A stretch of 64,000 nucleotides of DNA from Daphnia pulex (Eukaryota > Arthropoda > Branchiopoda > Diplostraca > Daphniidae). The notes beneath the pieces are model-generated. The model ran no database searches and was not told the origin of the DNA. It saw only the letters and a program-made list of their open reading frames with translations. The stretch lies in assembly GCF_021134715.1 (NCBI RefSeq), contig NC_060017.1, forward strand, positions 8,122,001 to 8,186,000. The letters run 5' to 3'. Position numbers and translations under genes: made by a program. This document shows positions 12,585-61,600 of the stretch, piece by piece (position 1 is the stretch's first letter; the number at the start of each line of letters is the position of its first letter).

Positions 12585-14570
12585 TTAGTCATTGTACTCC
12601 CACCACTCCTTGTCATAACCCTCGTAAACGTGTTCAGCCAATACTCTTCTCCGGCTGTCACAGTATCTGTATTTATCTTGGACCTTCTGTTTGATATCGA
12701 CGAGGTTCTCTTGCGTGATGTCGCGTTCAAGATATTCAGAAAGCTTCTCAGTTGCCGTTTCCAAATCTCTCTGATTGTCCTGCATGAGCAATAAATGTGT
12801 ATCGATATTAATTCGACGTCGTCTACAATGTGAGCAGCAAACGTACCTCAAAAATGACTGACTGATTATTTTTCTTTAGATAGTAGGCGAACACGTAGGT
12901 GTACATCAAAGTCTGTCGGCATTGGCACAGAATGTCAACGGCCTTTTTCAAGAATTGCACCTAGAATACAAGAGCAGAATGTCAGTTTGGTTTGTCAGTC
13001 TCCACTGTAACGATCTTCTTACCTCAATCCATGACATGTTGTGCTGCTGCATTTCCTCCATCTTCTCCTTAACGGTGGCGTAATGCTTGTGCTCCAGACG
13101 AAGCGACTGCATGTGATTCATGTAGCGATTGCAGTAAAAGAGGTAACGCTGCAGCGCCGCCCTTGAGCGCTCTTGGGCATCTCTAGCTGCTCGGGCCTCG
13201 TCTTCGTCGTAACGATTGCAATTGTACCTATCGTTTTTAAATTTAAAATTAGCAAAATGAAATTTCACATGGTCAAACTGGACTCACCAAGATGTTCCAT
13301 GAGGCTCCCATGGTCCGAGACAAACCCAGCAAAATTCGGTTTTACAATGAGAGTTTTTGCAAACCATGTGATTGCATCCTCCATCTTTTTCAATCGTAGC
13401 TTTGCATTTAGGGCATTCCTATAATACGAAAAATAACAGGAAATGAATGATTGCAATAACACTTACGATCAATCATCAAGTCGCTCTATACCTTGGTGTT
13501 AGCTGCAATCCAATTGGAAGTTTCAGAGTCATCGTCACACTTTTTTATCCACTTCCGGAGAAGTGTGCAGCGAACTGGCTCGTGCCAATTGTTACCACAT
13601 GCAAAACAGAACGTATGTCCGCAACGACAAGTAACTGGACGTGATTCGACGTGCTGAACTCGAAGAACACTGCTACAATCCGGACTTGGGCACCACCTTA
13701 ATAATCGATTACACTGCAACGAACAAGATACATTTACTTAATAATGACCATGTTTTAACAAAACAATGTAACAAAAACAACATACCTCCACAAAGCTATT
13801 GGTGATGAGATGTTGATACTTGAGTCGTACTTTGGCGTCAGGTACGAGTTTCATGACAGTGGCATCATCAATAAGAATTTCACAATTGTGAGCGGCACAA
13901 GATATGGTTTGGCCGATACCTTCTGACATGATCTTAGTGGTGAGATATTCGGCCCAGCACGAGACGCAAAACCGGTGCCCACACTCCAATCCAGACATCA
14001 CAGACGAAGGTAAGGTTGATAAACAAATCTAGAGCAAAATAAGACGCATGTTGGAAGGTTCGAGTCTTTCACAAAAATGCCCACAAAAACGCACCTCACA
14101 CTCTTCGACACTTGGACCTGCACGGCGCTGATCTTTCTTGGCAACTTTAGCTGGAACTGCAGCTTTGGCAAATGGACTTGCAACGTGAGCTTCTGTGAAA
14201 AGTTTTTCTGGATCGCCATCATAGTATCTCTCCATTAGTTTCTCTTTATCCCAACGAAAATGGTTAAGCAACATTCGAATCACAGTGGAGGGCATCTGCA
14301 AGAAAGCCATTTCATTATTTACATAGTCGATGCCAATCAAAATAGTAATATACATACCTCAACAACTATGTTAACTTCTTTCATACACTCATTCATGTGC
14401 TGAAGAATTTGTTCAGTGGTCAGAACTTCGTATGGATATTCATCGAGTTCTTGCCTGTCTTTGGGATTATTGGGTTCTTCTACCATTGCAAACTCAACAT
14501 CATCATCGCCACTGGACTCGTTACCAGAATCATCATAATCATCGTACATTATTTCCTCATCAGAATCCAT
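12585..14570 (-). CDS. ari-1: Ariadne-1, RBR E3 ubiquitin ligase
   Basis: Eight exons give 507 aa (fly ari-1 is of similar size): 14570-14358, 14295-14095, 14028-13786, 13713-13492, 13418-13288, 13227-13023, 12960-12847, 12779-12585. The N-terminus is acidic ([14 protein letters not shown]) and is followed by the UBA-like region. RING1 is [12 protein letters not shown] with [12 protein letters not shown]. The IBR region has [16 protein letters not shown]2 carries CNHMVCK, which includes the catalytic cysteine that accepts ubiquitin from the E2. The Ariadne domain ends KEWWEYND. The protein works with Nedd8-activated cullin-RING ligases. An acceptor just above the ATG (TTTTCAG) shows a 5' UTR intron. 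Confidence 0.96.
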
Positions 14571-16122
14571 GATGTATCTGAAAACACAAACAAAAATTTT
14601 AATATTTACTTCAAACTAAATACTAAATACAATAATATTCACAACTAGCCTCTAGGCAATTTTGATTTCTTGTCATTACTAATTTGATTTAATTAAAAAA
14701 ACTAAGAGCAAGAGCAACTGAAGGTTGTGAAATTTAGTGCAGTCAAGTCTCAAAGTCTATTCTCGACGTTTTATGACGAATATGTTTGTGACGAACCTGC
14801 TTTTACGAAACAATGAACGTTGATAAGCACTTGGTGTATGTTAGTACACCAGCAAATCTGTTCCACTAAGACACTGCAATTGGATCTCATCAGCTGAAGA
14901 ACAACTGATTTGGTTGGAAAATTGGAAAGGAATATAGAAGAGAACGATTCTCTTGTCTGTGGTGTAAAATCCCCGAGAGCTGCAATTGAAAGAGAGAGAA
15001 AAAAAAGGCCGTCAAACGCGAATGGCCAAGGACGTTTCTCAATCTCTTTGGTCTTTTGTGTGTATCGCTATTCCGGGTTTCAAGTGTAAATAAAATTCTT
15101 TTTTCCTTTCTTTGTCTTGCACTATTTTCCAGAGGTTATAATTCAAGTAAAAAAAATTGCCTAATTAATTATTTCGACTTGAGAAAACCTTCTAGAGGTC
15201 GACTGCCCTAACGATATTACTAATATGTAATATCTGTCGGACATGTTTGTACAGTGTTGCAGTAATCAAGAATATTTTCATTTTTCCATGTCTTTTTGGT
15301 TAACTAATTAGAAGAAGTTTCTGAAACGTATTTTATACGTTTTTATTTTTCTACATACGAATTCATCTTTGATTGAAATAATAATTAAGTTTATAATCTA
15401 GTTTTGAGAAGGGTTTTTTTAACACAAGTTCCGGAAATCACGATGACTCGATGAGGTCCGCAAAAATAGATTTAGGCCAATAAAAATAGATTTCCTGTCA
15501 TAAGGCCATGAATGTAATAAATTCTCATAGATTAACTTAAATAAACTAATTTACTTTCTGTATTTCTCTGATGTGTTTTTTTTTCTTGTTATTTATTGTT
15601 GCGACTTGGCTCTCTTACAACTGATGACGTTTTTGCTTTTTTTTCCCCAAAAAACGTATTTTTCCAATAGCTTCGTGGATTCTCAATAGATGGCATTAAA
15701 CTAGTGTTTCGTTCGAAAAATCAAAAATAATTCAAAATTCAGAATTGGAGAGGCAAAGAATTTAAAAATTAAAATTGATTATTCATCAATTATATCATAT
15801 AATCGAACTTAAATAAACCTCTAAAATTTTTCCCGCTCAAAACATTATTCAGTCGACAGACGACGGCACAACCTCACAGATAGTGCGTGGCCAGCGTGCG
15901 TCCGTGAACCTACTACTCATCCTTGTTGACGAAATTTAAAAAAAAATGTAAAAAAAAAGTAAAAATTATTATTCATGATCAATTGTGAAATTCAAAGTGA
16001 AGGCAATAAAATGTGTCAGTTAAAACAGCACTGGCTATGCTCAAGCAAAGATAAAGAGAAAAACCACGTGTTCAGGTGTGTTAGTTTCGGCCATAAAAAA
16101 CTGGCGCGTACGGTAACCGGTA
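14571..16122. other. Divergent region between ariadne-1 and DYNC2H1
   Basis: This spacer holds the ariadne-1 5' UTR and promoter and, at its right end, the upstream region of DYNC2H1. Much of 15000-15850 is AT-rich with homopolymer runs. No gene was recognised. Confidence 0.4.
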
Positions 16123-16157
16123 GTAACGTGTTATTTCTCCGTGTAACCCTTAGCAAC
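16123..16157 (+). promoter_or_regulatory. Tandem RFX X-boxes upstream of DYNC2H1
   Basis: Two sites fit the X-box consensus GTNRCC-N(0-3)-RGYAAC at every position: GTAACC-GGT-AGTAAC at 16123-16137 and GTAACC-CTT-AGCAAC at 16143-16157, starting exactly 20 bp apart. X-boxes are bound by RFX factors (DAF-19 in worm, Rfx in fly) that drive ciliary genes. The downstream gene is the IFT dynein heavy chain, whose orthologues are known RFX targets. Binding here is inferred. Confidence 0.8.
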
Positions 16158-16478
16158 GCTCGAAACACAAATGGTAACAACAGTCAGAAAAACACCATTA
16201 GGTCGGGCAAACCGGCTGACTGAAGCTCACAATACTTTGAGATGGATGGAACAGCCAATGATCACTTCAATTACAATCGTCTTCAAACACCACAAACTAG
16301 TAAGTCGTTTATTTTTAAAAATTGTTCTACGTGTAATTAGTGATATCACCATCTCCGTAGGATTTCGTCCTAGGGGTTGTCAAATCGCCCTACAAACGAT
16401 TTCAATTAATAATTCTGCCACTAAATTAAATTTGATAGACTAAACCATGGACTAAAGATTGCTTATGAGCACGTCAAC

Positions 16479-19400
16479 ATGTCATTCGAAATCTCACAGA
16501 CTCATACGTTTACACTTTTAGATAATGTCGACGCGGAGCTCCAAAATTGGAAAAACATCTCCAAAAACAGTCAAGAAATGGAAGAACGGCGACGTGCCAA
16601 TACATTTATTCGTGCGATTGAGCCAATCGTCGAAGAAATCAAAGCGCTGGAATCATTCCGACTAAGGGAGATGGAAGATTCTGCAAATAGCATTCTAGGA
16701 TGTATTGATGATTTGTGGAAACTTGAAGATTACAAGTATCCTCAAGATCAAATGGACCATCTTCTTAACATATCAAGTACTACCCAATTCACAGGGGGAA
16801 AAAAGGAATTGTTATTTGATTGAAATTTATTATTGCAGGTGCGTGTTTCGCAGAAGCGATCGCCAAGAAACTCAAAAACAGTTCAATTTGGATGCCAAAT
16901 TCTTCAAGTCATACTCACTTGGCTCAAGTATGTTGTAATTTAAATGTTTCTTAGAACTGCGTAATTGACAACTAATTGCTTTAGGCTTTGACTGGTTGTA
17001 ATGCGTGGATTAATGAATGCCATCGGATGACGTCACTCTTCTGGAAAAACGACATGTACCATCCATGGAAAGGAGAACCTTTTCTCTCGTTAAATGTTGT
17101 CAAGCTACGTGATCGTATCAATCAGGTGCAATAATTTCAGCGCGTATTTTAAAAAGGACGATTTGAACTAGGAGTTTATTTAATAGATTACTTCAATACT
17201 CCAAGTCATCAGCCTTGCAGCCCAATTGATACCGTCATCCAAACATGATTTGCTAGATCCCAATTATTTATTTGAGGGCTTTCAAGGTAGGATTTCATTC
17301 TTAAGATGCTAATGGGTCTGAAAACAACAATTTCATTGGCAGCTTTAGATGGCATGCCAAATTCCTTGCTAGACAACGCGGGGTGGAAAGCCGCCGTCAG
17401 CCAGTTCAACGATCACTTCACTCAGGCTGAAAAGGAAGCCGGTTCTGCCCTCCGGCCGCGTTTGACTTCAGCATCCAGCGGTGATCCATCTGCAGTACGA
17501 TTATTGATTAAGACAAATAACATGTGGCATAGGATTCAAATGGTTTTTGTTGAGTGCCTTTACAGCTATTAGACTCGCTTCTTGAATTCAAAGAGCTGGT
17601 TCAACGGCCTCGCATCCGCCGAGAGCTGGAATCAGAGGGTCGAGCGCTTATGAACTATACAAAGACATGGTTAGAGAAACTACGACGAGACCTTGCGACA
17701 GCTAAAGTTAATATCGGGTCCAACTCGTCATCAAAAGTGCCAGAAACATTACGGGAGATCAATGCAATTCGCCACTTGGAAACGCAAGTAACAAATTTAA
17801 ATCAAATTATGCTGAATTTAACGATTGATCGTAAGTACAAACAAAATTGTAGGTAACCAATATACAAAAAGGTGTCCAGATTTTTGCAAGCGATATGGAG
17901 GAAGCCAAAAATTTGGACCAGGAATCACGAAATTTGTTGTCGGAGATAAAAGATCAAATTAATGAAATCTTTGACGATTGGAGCCGAAATATTTTGGCCG
18001 GAATACGTGACGAGTCGTTAAGGTATGGTGGAAACATTAATACTTTTATTGATTGCTTCAAATAAAATGTAAAAATTGATTTGGTTAGTCTATCGAGCGA
18101 CTCGCCGGTCATGTCATTCGATGAGAACAAATTAATGATAATCAACTACGATCCTCGTTTGATCAATTTTGTCGAAGAAGTTCGCCTACTATCGTCCATG
18201 GGTTTTAAAATGGCTCCGCAAATCATGCGCAACTCGAAATTAGCTGAAGATTTCATGCAACAAGCGAAAAGTTTAGAGGAGGTAATGTAAGGTTAAATTT
18301 TAAAACTAAATTTTCTATTTGCTCACTGTTTTCGCGTTGCTTATACAGATTGCAACCTTTCACAACAATATTGGTGACAGTATGATGCCTTGCTTGAAGC
18401 CTCTGATGTTGGAAGCGGCAATTGGACTCTCTGCTTTGGTGCAGGAACAAAATGTCGTCACCTGGGCGCAAGCAGAAAATGTCAACAGCTACATCCGTCG
18501 ACTCCAGCAGGCTGTTCAAAGGCTAACCGCCCTAAATCAGCAACTCACCATGTGCCATGAAAAAATTCAAGAAAAGGTACTACTTAATTGTTTTCCCTTC
18601 CCTGCTTTTAATACAAGCTAATTCTATAAATTGTATGTCATAGGTTTTAAAGCTATTTGATATTGATCTGATGACGCAACAACAAAAATGGAAAGATAGT
18701 CTACGGGAAGTCCGATTGCTATTCGGAACTGTGGAAGCTCAAGTAAGCATATAAATTATCAATCACAGGGCTATTATCCCAATAAATGATTTGAATGAAT
18801 TGCAATTCAAGGGTTTCCACAATTCATACGCCTGGCGCTTGTATTGGGATTATCAACTGTATAAGGCCGTAGAGTGTCAGTACCTGTTACATTTGGACGA
18901 GCTACACACGAACGTGTCGGATATTCACATCGAACTTGATTTCAAGTAAGCAAAAGTTTTTTGTTACCGCAATTCTTTTTCGATTCCTTTATTTTGTTTG
19001 ACGGAAAAAGTAGTGGTGGGGGGGGGGGTGACCTTTTTATTGCTTTGCATTAGCAGAAAAAGGGGTGCGGTGGGCACCCTTACTTAAGTTTTCGACAACA
19101 CGGGCTAAAAAATAGAAAGGGGAAATATTTTTAGGAAGTCGCCTTGAGATTTATAATTTTGTTTTGTTTCAGGAAACAAAATTTGCTGTTCAAACCCCCA
19201 ATTGAAGACATAAGGCGCGAATACTACACCAAATTACGCAAGTTTCTGTCTCTCCCTCTACATTTCAAAGGATTTTTGGAGCAGCCTGGGGCTCCGAGCC
19301 TATTTCCAAAAATTGTCGAAAAACACGCCAATCGATTCAGTCAGGTGTACGCCGCATCAGGCAAAGTGTTTAGGGAATTGGACCAGTTTCAGGAACAATT

Positions 19401-22400
19401 TAAGATTTGGATAGTCCCAGCTCTTGTCGATCTAGACACTCTGTTTGAACAACGACTCAATGAACCACAGGATTGGGACTTGGCATTCCAGGCAGCCAAA
19501 AAGAAGAAAGAAGAAATGTCTGGTTTATCGAGGTACTATACTGTTATCAGTTGATAATATTGTCCGCTTGTAATTATACTCTCATTTCAACAGTGATGAC
19601 GAGCGTGTTGGATGCTTCGTGATTAGTCTAACTCCTTTGCATCGAGAGATTGAATACATTCAACGTCGTTATTGGGATGCCATAACCTCTTCACTCTACA
19701 CGTCCATTCACAAGGACGCGACATCCATCGAAACTTTCATATCCAACGCAACTGTTGTGCTGAATGTCCAGTTGCATGATGTCGACGAACTTTCTCAGGC
19801 CAGCAGTGACTTTAACGAATTACTTCGCACGACTCCCGAAGTATTTCGCATACCATTTAAATTATGTTATCAATTACTTTTAAAAATATCTGATTACCTA
19901 GATAACTCGCCTTATGAAAAAAGCTGAAACTAAAGCTCAAGTTTTGTCAAGATGGACACAGGACAGTGTGGAGATTTTTACCCAAGTCTGTACCAAATGG
20001 GAAAATTTCAATACGCTTCTCTCTCGCCATAAACAAGACATTAATCAACAGGTAATCGTTTTCATTATTAGAATATCAATTTCTAAGCTAATATTGGTAA
20101 CTTCCTATACAGTTGGACAGTCTAAAATCAAACAGTCAGTCCCAGATTATCAAGTTTACATCTGAAATCGACCAGTTTTATCAGAATTGGCAACAAGAAC
20201 AGCCACCGGATAGACTAGACATGACAAATTTAGACCAGTATTTAAAACTCTTACGAAAGAGTCGTAGGGAATGGTGCGAACTGATGGAGAATCAGATACG
20301 GTTAAAGTAAAACAATGAATTTCCATTCTGTTTAAATTGCGCGATTACAAATAATTATTTTAAAAATCGGCATTAGCGTCAATTTGGAAAAAGTTGGAGA
20401 GAAACCTGTCGAATTATCTGTGATAACCGAAATTGAAGGTGAAATTGCTCAGCGAGAGAGGATTTGGAGCCTCTACCAATCTTTCACCGAAGGTTGTATC
20501 TTTTTACACTCATAATCTAGTAAAATCTAATGGACATTTTGTATTTTTGGTGTTAGAATTGGATGAGATGGGTCACGAAGATTGGCTTTTGTCACGAAAT
20601 AAGATTGTTAAACTAGACGAATACCTGGAAACTTGGATGAATAGGCTTAATGAAAGTGAGGATAAATCACCAATAATTGATTGGCTAAAGAATCAAATCG
20701 AGCAACACAAGGTATTTTTGATTTCTCTTCTTTACCTCGACATTGACTGCATTTTTAATCATTTCAAATCCCATTTTACTTTATAGGCTTTCATTCCAGT
20801 GCTGAAACTAGCGCGCGGGGAAACATTTACAGAGCGCCATTGGGCAGAATTTCTAAAAATAACTGGCCTATCTACTACAAGCATCGAACAAGTCACCCTT
20901 GAAGACCTTCTTCGAGCGCAAACTGTTTTATCTCAAAACTTCAATGAATTAAAAGTAAAATTAAAGCCCTAATTTTTTAAATAATTTATGAAACAGTTTT
21001 TTTTCCAACTCTTGTAGGAATTAAATAGCAGAGCAGCTGGCGAATCGCTGGTCAGACAAGCGCTGGTTGAATTAGAACAGTGGGAAGTAGAGTCACATTG
21101 GACATTGGCTCAGCACGTTGATTCAAATGGCATTCAGTTATTCATCATTAAAGAATTCAAAGAATTGCTCAACAAGGTAAATTTCCTAAATATTTCCAAC
21201 ACGCATTTCCTAATTCTAAAGAGCATTTAACCAATCAGGTTGGTGAGAATATGAGTCTTATTCAGTCCGTCAAGGATTCATCCTACTATCAGGCATACAG
21301 CGACCGGATAATGCTGTGGGAAACCAAAATGACAGACCTAGATTTTTACCTCCGCCATTTGAGTCAAATTCAAATCAAGTGGGTTGCTTAATATTTCAAT
21401 CCATTTACATCTGCCTTTAATAAAATGGCAATATTTCATTTTTTTAAACAAAAGGTGGCTCTATTTAGAACCTGTTTTCAATCGAGGAGCTTTATTAAAA
21501 GATGCCGGACGTTTTCGTCGCCTGGATGCCGATTTTCGGTTCATCATTACCGAGATCAAGCGTGACAGCAGAGTGACGTCAATCTTACGCATTACTAATC
21601 TGCGCTCTTTGGTTACTAGCCTGCTAGATCAAGTTGGCCGCTGCCAGAAAAGTCTCTTTGAATTTTTAGAGGCAAGTTGTTAATCGCTGTTCCACGAATT
21701 GAATCCATTTTCACGACCTTTTGATTTGTACAGGATAAACGTTCGAAATTTGCACGTTTCTACTTCTTGGGGGACGAAGACCTGCTAGATATAGTCGGCC
21801 AGGCAGCCACCAGGCCCTCTGTAGTGCAACCGCACTTGAAAAAGCTTTTCGCTGGTATTCACTCTGTCCTTTTCAGCAACGATCAACGCTACATCGTGGC
21901 TGTGGCTTCGTTGGAGGGCGAGCGAGTCGAGTTGAAATCGCCAGTGTCGGTGTCGTCGGAACCAGTCGAGATGTGGCTCAACCGTTTGGTAACGGAAACC
22001 CGCTCCACACTACAGGCGATGTTGCGCAACTGTGTACAGGAGCGTCAGCGGGACGCCACCGATCTCTCTCGATTCCCGACACAGATCCTCTGTTTGGCCG
22101 AAGCGATCGTTTTCACAGAGCGATGCGAAAAAGCTATTTCCTCCTCACCCGGCGCGTTGTCCAAACTCAAAAGTGACTATCAAAATCAATTGGCCAGTTA
22201 CACCAGTGCTCCGCTGTTGCAGAGCAGTGGTTCTGACGAACAGGGTGTCATCGTTTTAAAATTGCAAGCTCTTATCATGGACATTATTCATTACATTGAC
22301 GTGATCAAGCAGATCCTCGATGCCAAGTGTCGTTCGACTAACGATTGGGCATGGAAGAAACAACTCAGGTATCAGTAATAATGAATTAAGTGTTGATGGC

Positions 22401-42094: not shown

Positions 42095-43407
42095 TAAAAA
42101 TGTGTAGAAGACCAGTCCCAGTTAACAAATTCAGCCGTTGCGGTATTCACTGATTTCTCGGTCGGGAGAGGCAGCTCTTCTATTGCTGTCATCAACGGAT
42201 CTTCTTGAAAATATTTAGCTTCCAAAAACTGGTTGTCAATGCAAAGTTTTAATTAGATTTAAATTTTTAAAAGATAGAAGATTAGAAATGACCTGTTTAG
42301 CTGTTATTCGTGATTGGGGGCAATAGCGAAGAAATTGTTCCAGCATCGTTCGTGATGATTCGTCTACATCAATCAGGATTTTCTTAAAGGAGATTTGTTT
42401 CCGAGTTTTGGTAAATGAAATTTTGTGGAAATCTGGCAATGCTGATACACCTGGCCAATTTTCTTCGTCTGGAGTGCCTAGTACTATGTAATTACCCACA
42501 AAAGAGTTAATGCCATTCACCTTGATTATGATTACCGTATTGTTAATGACCTTGAATGACTGTGCACAGTTGGCCAATGTCATTTTCTCCCTAGGGTTTG
42601 ATGGAAATCCGGATACTGTTACAACATATTATATTGACAACATTGGCCATTATTTACCGGAAAAAGGGGAGAATTCTTCAACATTTCACCAAAGATACAG
42701 CCCATAGCCCATAGGTCGACTTCCGGTCCTGTTGTGAAAAAGGTGTTAGAATTAACATGGCATTTTTAAATTAAAATGAAACTTGCCATAGTTGCGAGAA
42801 CCATAGAGCAGTTCCGGTGCTCTGTACCACCGCGAAGCCACCTGATGTGTGAATAATCTTTGAGCCTTTTCGGAATGATTGAACGTACGACACAATCCGA
42901 AATCGGTCACTTTCAGTTCGCCTCGGGAACCAATCAGCAAATTGGCCGGCTTCAAATCCCGATGCATAATACCCAAACTATGAATATATTCCACAGCGCT
43001 GGCTAGCATCCACATGTCTAAATGGAAAGGATTGCATATTGGTTATTTGAATGCCTAAAATCTGATTGTAGAGATGTAAATATGGTACAGCTTTTCACGT
43101 GACTCGTCGGCAAAGGTTTGGAGTTGGAGCGCAAAAATTCGTAGAGATCTATTGGTAAATATTCAAAGACCAACACAAGCGAATATCCTTGTGGGAAATA
43201 GTCCACTAGGTTCACTACATATTCATGGCGGATCAGGCGAAGAGCCAGCAATTCACGAACAGCCGAGTTCGGCAATCCCTGCTCGTTAATGTTCTTCAAC
43301 GCTATCCGTTTCATGGCGACCAGTTTCATTGTGGACTTGTCAATACCTTTAAGAACGATCCCGTGTGCCCCTTCCCCAATCCTGCCGTTCACAATATATC
43401 TTTCCAT
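42094..43407 (-). CDS. CDK20: Cyclin-dependent kinase 20 (cell cycle-related kinase)
   Basis: Six exons give 326 aa (human 346): 43407-43089, 43017-42787, 42728-42658, 42590-42551, 42477-42293, 42228-42094. The start [18 protein letters not shown] matches the CDK20 N-terminus. Kinase motifs are the glycine loop GEGAHG, VAMKR (Lys), [15 protein letters not shown], and the T-loop [18 protein letters not shown]. Later segments [21 protein letters not shown] and GENDIGQL also match. CDK20/CCRK and its relatives (LF2, DYF-18) control cilium length and IFT. The intron 42786-42729 starts with GC. The stop codon overlaps the minus-strand AATAAA. An upstream in-frame ATG at 43437 exists but lacks family support. 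Confidence 0.93.
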
Positions 43408-43594
43408 GAGATCGTTTAAAAAAACTAATCGCAACAAATATTTTTAAACAACAAATTGGTTGCCTTGACTACGCGCCATCTATTGGTAACCATTATCGAC
43501 ACGTGAAAAGGAAAATTAGTCTGCTAGAAATTTGAAGAAGAACAAGTGGCAAGCAACTTTATGTGCATGTTGTTGTAAACTTTCTCGTACAAAA
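43408..43594. promoter_or_regulatory. Shared CDK20/XPD head-to-head promoter
   Basis: Only 187 bp separate the two start codons, so the transcripts must start within or very near this interval. At 43459-43472 the minus strand reads GTAGTC-AA-GGCAAC, an RFX X-box with one mismatch (T for C at position 5) and a perfect RGYAAC half. No TATA box is present. Confidence 0.55.
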
Positions 43595-58606: not shown

Positions 58607-61600
58607 ATGGCTGGAAGGGGTAAAAGGAAAAATAGGGACGATAATGGATTTGCAGAGTGGGTGAGACGACTTATTCGACTTCTGACACTACTAATTATGT
58701 TATTCATATTTGGAATCATTATTTACAGGGGGGTTATATGGCAGCAAAAATTTCTAAACTAGAAAATCAGTATTTGAATGAACAATTCAATGAAGTACAA
58801 GAAGATGATAAACTAAGCAATGTATTTTCAAATGTTGCAATTTTTGTCAATGGATATACCAGTCCAACTGCAGAAGAACTGAAGCGCATCATGCTGGCCA
58901 ATGGAGGAGTTTACCACCATTACTATAATTCAAAAACGACTACTCATATAATTGCGTCCAACTTGTGTGGTGCTAAAATCAAGAAACTCAAGGGCGACGA
59001 AAAATTTGTTAAGCCAGAATGGATTGTTGAAAGTCTGAAAGCCAATATGTTATTGGATGTGAAGCCCTATTTGCTTTACACTGGGCTAACTTTAGACAAA
59101 GGGCAACAAAAGTTGGACATTGCTTCAATACAGAAGAAAAATGATGACAATCAAACAGCAATAGAAAGAAAAATTGATGAAGCACATTCCTCTGAACCTG
59201 TTCCACCTGGTGATATTACTAGACATTCAAGAGAAATGAAACGCGCAGGAGAAGACGATTTTTTATCTGAATTTTACAAACGCTCAAGGCTTCACCACAT
59301 TTCCACAATGGGAGCGTTATTCAAAAGACATGTGACTGAGCTTCGAGAGAAAAATGATGGTGTTTTTCCAGGTACAATTTTGATAGCAGCATTTTATTAA
59401 TGCAATTACATGTAATATTTAAAAATTTAGGTATGGAAAGTATTGAAAACTGGAAGAACTTGACTGGTTGCCTAGGAAACTACAAGTGTGAAGAAACTGT
59501 TTTCATGCACATTGACATGGATTGCTTCTTTGTCTCGGTTGGACTGCGCAACTATCCATCGTTGGTGGGTAAACCGGTTGTTGTGACCCATGCAAGAGCT
59601 GACGCTAAACCGCTTCCAAGACGCGAAGGCAGCAATCGAGAATATGAATTCGACTGCTATAAAGAACATTGGATCAAAAAATCGAAATTTTCAGAAAATA
59701 ACAGCAATGCTGTTGATACGGTGGCTACGCTTTCAGATGTTTTTCCACGACTTCAGGATTTGGATGAAACTTGTTCCATGTCCGAAATCGCTTCGTGTAG
59801 CTACGAAGCTCGCGCAGCTGGAATTTATAACGGAATGTTCATGGGAGGTGCCTTGAAATTATGTCCTAATCTGGTTGCCATTCCGTACGATTTTGAAGGA
59901 TACAAGGAGGTAATACATTTACAATCAATTATTTAAAATCTTTAATTCATTTTTCCGTTTGTGGGCGTGTTTAAGGTGTCCACCTCGCTGTACAATACTG
60001 TTGCCGCGTACACTTTGGACTTGGAAGCCGTCAGCTGTGATGAGTTGTACGCAGACATTACCTCCGTTTTGCGCCAAAGTGGACTCACGCCAGCCGAGTT
60101 TGCTACTCATTTGAAAGAAGTCATCTTTAATAAGACACAATGTAACGCCTCTGTCGGAATGGGCCCGAATATGCTGATGGCTAGGCTTGCAACCAAAAAA
60201 GCCAAACCGAACGGACTGTTTTATATCAACAAGAAAGACATGAATGAATTTATGAAGGACCACAAAATTGAAGATCTGCCGGGTGTCGGAAGGTCCATGG
60301 CTCATCGACTTCATGGCATGGGCGTTCGCACTTGTGTTGAAATGCAGCAAGTATGTGTACATAGCTTCTATTTCATTAAACAAATATGTAATTGTGTTTC
60401 TGAAAATCAGGTAAGCTTGGGAAAGCTCCAACAAGAGTTTGGTCAAAAGCAAGGACAAACATTATATCATATGTGCCGGGGAGAAGATAAACGCGCTCTA
60501 AAGGTATTATCTCAGTCTCAGGTTAACTTTCCATTTCAAAATTGTTAATATTGCGTGGTCCACATAGACGGACCACGTTCGAAAATCTGTTTCGGCAGAT
60601 ATAAATTATGGAATTCGTTTCGCAAATGATCAGGAAATGCACAAATTCGTTCAAGAACTGTCCATTGAAGTGTCCAAACGAATGGAAGAAATTCACGTAA
60701 TTAATTTAAACATTTTTTTAACAGCGAAAGCAATTTTAACTTTGTTAAATGTCTCTTTAGGTGAGAGGAAAACTGTTGACTTTGAAGCTCAAAATCCGCG
60801 CCAAAGATGCCCCTGTAGAAACAGCGAAATTTATGGGTCACGGAGTATGTGATAGCATTTCTCGATCCACAACATTGTGTTCTGCCACTCGCGACACCAA
60901 AATCGTCGAAAAAGAAGTTCAAATCCTTTTGAAACAACTCAAAGGTAGTACGCTATATACCTTATCCTGCACAAACCATATTATTCTAACCCATCTCAAT
61001 TATTCTTTACAGTTGATTGCTGCGAGTTGCGGGGAATGGGCATTCAGTTTAGTAAACTTGTAGAGGATAACGTATTCAAAGGCAAACAACCGATACAGAA
61101 CTCTCTTCTCAATTTTGTAGCCCGCTCAAGGATAGTGCCACCAGAAGAAGTTGTAACAACAGTGGCGGATGTAACCGAACCTGAACGTGAAATCCTGGAA
61201 CCAGCTAGTTCTAAAACAGTTGATAAGGAGAAGAAGGATGATACAAGGGAAACACAACACCCACCTTCTCTCTTTGAACTTCCCTCAGCTTCTCAGATTG
61301 ATTCTGCCGTCTTTAACGAACTTCCTGACGATTTAAAGAACGACATTATTCAAGAATATCACCGAAAGGGAATCGCTTTAAGTGAAGTGAATAGTTTTGC
61401 AATGAAACCTACAACATCGTCATCTGTGAATGGCTCCTCGGTACCAACGTCGAACTCTGCTGGCACTTCCCGATCAGAGAATCCAGTATCCTACGACGGC
61501 ATTGAAGAAGTAGCGGACATAGACGCCAGTTATTGGTCAGCATTGCCTGACGATATTAAAACGGAAATTGAAAGAGACATTCAACAACGCAAAGCCGAAG

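Follow-up and report, generated by a model that had tools for sequence, protein, structure and literature searches.

The window, the whole 64-kb stretch of Daphnia DNA analyzed here, contains a cluster of RFX-type half-sites on the plus strand, followed by a gene that by sequence similarity is DYNC2H1, the cytoplasmic dynein-2 heavy chain, and further downstream a CDK-type kinase gene on the minus strand. The features are as follows.

16113..16127, plus strand: X-box 1, GTAACCGGTAGTAAC = GTAACC GGT AGTAAC, spacer of 3, GYAAC cores at 16113 and 16123
16143..16157, plus strand: X-box 2, GTAACCCTTAGCAAC = GTAACC CTT AGCAAC, spacer of 3, cores at 16143 and 16153
16173..16178, plus strand: fifth half-site, GGTAAC, core at 16174, 21 bp after the fourth core
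16113..16178, plus strand: entire cluster, with its five GYAAC cores on the same strand (offsets 0/10/30/40/61)
16242..16299, plus strand: predicted exon 1 of the DYNC2H1 coding sequence (MDGTANDHF...); a stop codon in frame lies 21 bp before it, and a GT donor follows at 16300
16522..16770 (end approximate), plus strand: second coding exon of DYNC2H1, tail of the cytoplasmic dynein-2 heavy chain
21725..22378, plus strand: DYNC2H1 open frame with the end of DHC_N2 (PF08393)
42236-43443, minus strand: CDK-type kinase gene; its promoter has an X-box at -65 as well as additional half-sites
43459..43472, minus strand: X-box GTAGTC AA GGCAAC, 65 bp upstream of the kinase ATG at 43407

The identity of the dynein gene, as named in an earlier sequence-only reading of this DNA, was borne out. 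The open frame at 21725-22378 scored 202 bits against the human cytoplasmic dynein-2 heavy chain and 98 bits against the next dynein, and the second exon aligned with the human DYNC2H1 chain at an E-value of 6e-05 (residues 380-461 of the tagged construct) and matched dynein-2 sequences in three of three cases. The ATG at 16242 is the first past the in-frame stop, and in the gene model that we infer the GT donor at 16300 and the AG before 16522 fit in phase. The main doubt concerns the start itself. The human protein has N-terminal sequence beyond what the predicted exon 1 covers; a further exon may therefore lie upstream, with the true start at another place. The tag length of the human construct that enters this comparison is assumed. 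The neighboring gene, divergently oriented, is of ariadne-1 type and starts at 14570 (minus strand). A search with the DYNC2H1 exon for relatives in prokaryote and viral contig collections, from which little was expected, gave 37 and 7 pattern matches, none of them confirmed. Relative to the predicted ATG the cluster lies 85-129 bp upstream, a position that agrees with the range of about 100-250 bp before the coding start described for X-boxes in worm (PMC2873420).

Both X-boxes fit the pattern GTNRCCN3RGYAAC exactly and are its only two matches in the 64-kb window; they also satisfy the permissive consensus GTNRCCN0-3RGYAAC quoted in PMC3414849. To this extent the description of two perfect X-boxes stands. 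Neither satisfies the stricter fly consensus GYTRYYN1-3RRHRAC, as the left half GTAACC, weak in both, has an A at position 3. The right half is strong in X-box 2 (AGCAAC) and fair in X-box 1 (AGTAAC). The stricter form is not a general requirement, and RFX targets departing from it are noted in PMC3414849. The geometry given in the sequence-only reading has to be corrected: the first motif begins at 16113, 10 bp before the coordinate of 16123 assigned to it, and the two starts are 30 bp apart, which rules out the claimed 20 bp and with it the argument from two helical turns. At 10.5 bp per turn, 30 bp corresponds to 2.86 turns and leaves the two boxes about 50 degrees off the same face.

We scored these sites with a half-site matrix built from 26 conserved X-boxes, at most 350 bp from the ATG, of 13 dRfx-dependent genes in two Drosophila species (Table 2 of PMC2375033, where not every single X-box was tested). 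On this fly matrix, X-box 2 scored 11.3 bits and ranked sixth in the window, and X-box 1 scored 7.3 bits and ranked 29th. The tile p-value of X-box 2 was 0.036, and 8 of 300 shuffles of the DYNC2H1 promoter reached its score. Each X-box alone is mediocre, and "perfect" overstates them. It is nevertheless reasonable that the predicted sites work in the manner of an X-box, because half-strong X-boxes are known at fd3F targets: those of fd3F/Rfx targets in fly often have one strong half-site only, RGYAAC (PMC3414849). The top score in the window, 18.4 bits at 59467-59480, was rejected as an X-box as it sits in a coding exon of a Y-family polymerase (REV1-like); this match is a warning about lone motif matches.

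The plus-strand GYAAC cores at 16113, 16123, 16143, 16153 and 16174 follow one another at steps of 10, 20, 10 and 21 bp. This is the sole instance of at least four same-strand cores within 66 bp in the 216 kb scanned, and only 1 of 300 dinucleotide shuffles equalled the half-site count of the last 150 bp before the DYNC2H1 start. There is also a 16-bp direct repeat, 81% alike, at a distance of 30 bp. It is thus quite possible, at somewhat short of an even chance, that X-box 2 with its AGCAAC half is the only working site, that X-box 1 and the remaining cores arose as by-products when a 30-bp segment was duplicated locally, and that the phasing is meaningless. The difference in score between the boxes (11.3 vs 7.3 bits) points the same way, as does the description of a single upstream X-box as typical in PMC3414849. 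Against it, the fifth core at 16174 lies beyond the repeat, and BBS9, IFT80, IFT81 and two B9 genes have additional half-sites as well. A single working box would be a sub-case of RFX control, and its likelihood overlaps with that of the explanation we prefer, control through the cluster.

The two boxes could also be permissive motif matches that happen to fall near a gene start. We searched the genome (133,188,837 bases on 13 contigs) for GTNRCCN3RGYAAC and found 191+214 matches (a self-symmetric one counts once per strand), whereas reading the pattern backwards gave 265+290; hence the motif is not enriched. That total of about 405, below the backwards control, speaks for chance, as does the finding in fly that the most degenerate of the X-box consensus forms, upstream of an ATG, had no predictive value alone (PMC2375033). 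What tells against chance is the combination. Assuming independent places, the whole genome should hold about 0.06 pairs with members no more than 50 bp apart, and two matches would fall in any given 250-bp stretch with a probability of about 3e-7; in 100 dinucleotide shuffles of the window the mean was 0.09 matches, with at least two in one shuffle. The four-core pattern GTAACN5GYAACN0-30GYAACN5GYAAC has a single match in the 133 Mb, at the DYNC2H1 cluster, with 7+10 for its backwards control, and this sole match precedes, at the usual distance, the orthologue of a known RFX target. High motif frequency, which the sequence-only reading had named as a possible source of such a pair, is rejected by these counts, and we regard coincidence as very improbable.

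To place the cluster among other ciliary promoters, we used cilium genes found by family searches: IFT80, three B9-domain genes, IFT57, BBS9, BBS5, IFT81, IFT46 and IFT20. Their names denote a family match, and the identity of IFT80 within its family is presumptive. A weak PF23387 match on contig C10, near a Copia-like open frame, and IFT46 were dropped before counting, giving ten promoters with a settable start, DYNC2H1 included. The best matrix site in the last 250 bp of each was:

DYNC2H1: -99, 11.3 bits
IFT57: -107, 18.4 bits
BBS9: -63, 16.4 bits
three B9 genes: -119, -83 and -66, with 13.6, 8.2 and 18.6 bits
BBS5: -129, 0.7 bits
IFT80: -106, 9.5 bits
IFT81: -106, 13.6 bits
IFT20: -64, 16.0 bits

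The survey of X-boxes upstream of ciliary genes that had been suggested as a check was made on these ten: the best site begins between -63 and -129 in all ten promoters and reaches at least 10 bits in seven, the other three falling below. Among 65 control ORF starts, many of them surely not true gene starts, three had a site of at least 10 bits in the -60 to -130 band. These positives include the kinase gene described above and locus L007, and loci L001-L008 had been fetched by the GTNRCC motif, so the controls are biased upwards; the kinase gene was removed from the 65 in one test, and the figure of 3/65 is with it. One of six hand-picked non-cilium starts had a site of at least 10 bits, outside the band. 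When nine promoters were dinucleotide-shuffled 300 times, an average of 0.42 genes had at least 10 bits, and never more than 4, compared with the six of nine observed, and the same nine promoters held 26 half-site cores against a shuffle mean of 6.3 and maximum of 15. The band was picked after the first nine promoters; IFT20 (-64) and the kinase gene (-65) are the later cases. At IFT46, whose start could not be placed, no X-box of at least 10 bits was found in 6.5 kb.

Several observations were made in passing. In the IFT80 promoter (L029:4055-4075), three copies of GTAAC, spaced by 6-7 bp, lie some 100 bp upstream of the ATG and resemble the DYNC2H1 cluster. Locus L007 contains a palindromic X-box, GTTGCCAGGCAAC, of 22.7 bits, 125 bp before an ORF at 778 of the reverse complement. 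DYNC2LI1 was sought via PF05783, and the matches looked like dynein-1 chains only; two dynein-1 light-intermediate-chain-like genes at C10:2855000 and C10:3284000 are in opposite orientation with equal or near-equal scores, and a third gene lies at C10:2013000. At L030:3726-7955 there is a retrotransposon open frame of 1409 aa, presumably Copia-like, which in the ORF list is flanked on both sides by one and the same 75-aa ORF.

RFX DNA-binding domains are encoded at three loci of the genome. The gene on contig C9 scored 123 bits against the human RFX1 domain (1dp7) and 34 against that of RFX5 and has the RFX BCD domain; by this similarity the genome that carries the cluster also encodes an RFX1-type factor. 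The C12 gene contains BCD pieces, and the C4 gene was recognized by its DNA-binding domain in the one frame scanned; the subtype of these two loci is our presumption. Their presence leaves room for an RFX of another type (RFX5/7-like), or for a different protein that binds GTAAC, which would read the cluster as direct repeats. The five cores, all in the same orientation at 10/20/10/21 bp, differ in this from the palindromes at several other cilium genes, and a forkhead motif is absent beside them. We nevertheless consider a different binder unlikely: the cluster occupies the position of canonical X-boxes, and the GTAACC array of IFT80 at -112 to -99 ties this form to IFT genes.

The forkhead-like motif AAACAAA/TTTGTTT was found in the last 150 bp of nine of the ten cilium promoters (loci L029, L032-L037, L046 and L058). 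The exception is DYNC2H1, whose 250 bp upstream contain neither AAACAAA nor RYMAAYA, the nearest RYMAAYA type being at -318. The motif occurs at 10 of the 65 control ORF starts, at two of the six hand-picked starts and in 12.8% of 1199 tiles of 150 bp; shuffles of nine promoters gave a mean of 1.5 and a maximum of 5, compared with eight observed. It was spotted in six promoters, and of the cases seen later IFT80, IFT81 and IFT20 (3/3) were positive and the kinase gene negative. Given so few controls and a motif of simple, A-rich composition, the pattern is no more than a lead, less settled than the RFX cluster. In fly, btv expression in chordotonal neurons is lowered when Fd3F, a forkhead factor working alongside Rfx, is missing (PMC3414849); in worm, FKH-8 works with DAF-19 across sensory cilia (PMC10393296); and a FoxT/fd3F gene is reported for Daphnia (PMC9269926). 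A tentative and rather doubtful extension is that in this crustacean core sensory-cilium genes (IFT, BBS, B9) share a module of a start-proximal X-box and AAACAAA, and that DYNC2H1 has instead an array of five half-sites for RFX alone, set on a lattice of about 10 bp, its forkhead partner replaced. DYNC2H1 would not be the sole departure from such a module, because the promoter of the kinase gene also lacks AAACAAA and has RYMAAYA-type matches only. If true, pan-ciliary RFX-forkhead control would predate the divergence of its roles between fly and worm.

Among the closest known systems is Drosophila btv, the Dync2h1 orthologue. A perfect consensus X-box lies about 100 bp before its ATG and its expression is down 124-fold in dRfx mutants (PMC10556659); btv is also among the dRFX targets in PMC2375033. 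The gene and the distance of the RFX site are shared with Daphnia. The fly gene has, however, one perfect X-box and a forkhead (Fd3F) site about 90 bp upstream, whereas Daphnia DYNC2H1 has two 3-spaced half-strong boxes and a half-site, with no RYMAAYA within 250 bp. Starts with two X-boxes, of which the second is in some cases degenerate, have been described (PMC4168999). In the double X-boxes of CG31320/HEATR2 the first box is palindromic with both halves well matched, unlike either DYNC2H1 box. The RFX/forkhead composites of fly (fd3F/Rfx) and worm (FKH-8/DAF-19) likewise place an X-box close to a cilium-gene start (PMC3414849, PMC10393296), whereas DYNC2H1 is without the AAACAAA seen in the other nine of the ten counted promoters.

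Together these data are best read as a rare cluster of RFX-type sites, located where X-boxes usually are, in front of a gene expected to be an RFX target, with fly btv as precedent and with an unusual multi-half-site form. We consider it highly likely that 16113-16178 is the proximal RFX-response element of DYNC2H1. RFX control, as the sequence-only reading proposed, agrees with the position, with the same arrangement at other cilium genes, with the RFX1-type factor and its BCD domain and with btv; the "perfect" sites and 20-bp spacing offered for it do not hold. In the mechanism we envisage, an RFX1/2/3-type factor would bind the cluster in ciliated sensory cells, most firmly at the AGCAAC of X-box 2 and more weakly at X-box 1, the fifth half-site and the other half-sites. 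Several weak half-sites probably replace one strong X-box, since each site is a poor palindrome. Binding about 100 bp before the ATG would then turn on the retrograde IFT motor gene, with its start just downstream. The cilium gene wiring of flies and worms is probably shared by a crustacean, and sequence evidence from the genome itself makes RFX control of the retrograde IFT motor likely in this animal as well. In the open-licence literature searched we found no crustacean X-box study. The promoters scored here provide a short list for testing RFX and forkhead roles in arthropod sensory cilia.

The kinase gene, a putative second cilium gene of the same window, surfaced among the control ORF starts and was not preselected. 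We take it to be CDK20/CCRK-like by subfamily, and its divergent neighbor to be an XPD/ERCC2-like helicase. The X-box at 43459 has the second-best fly-matrix score in the window, 15.7 bits. CCRK/CDK20 is described as a regulator of ciliary retrograde trafficking (PMC8500422).
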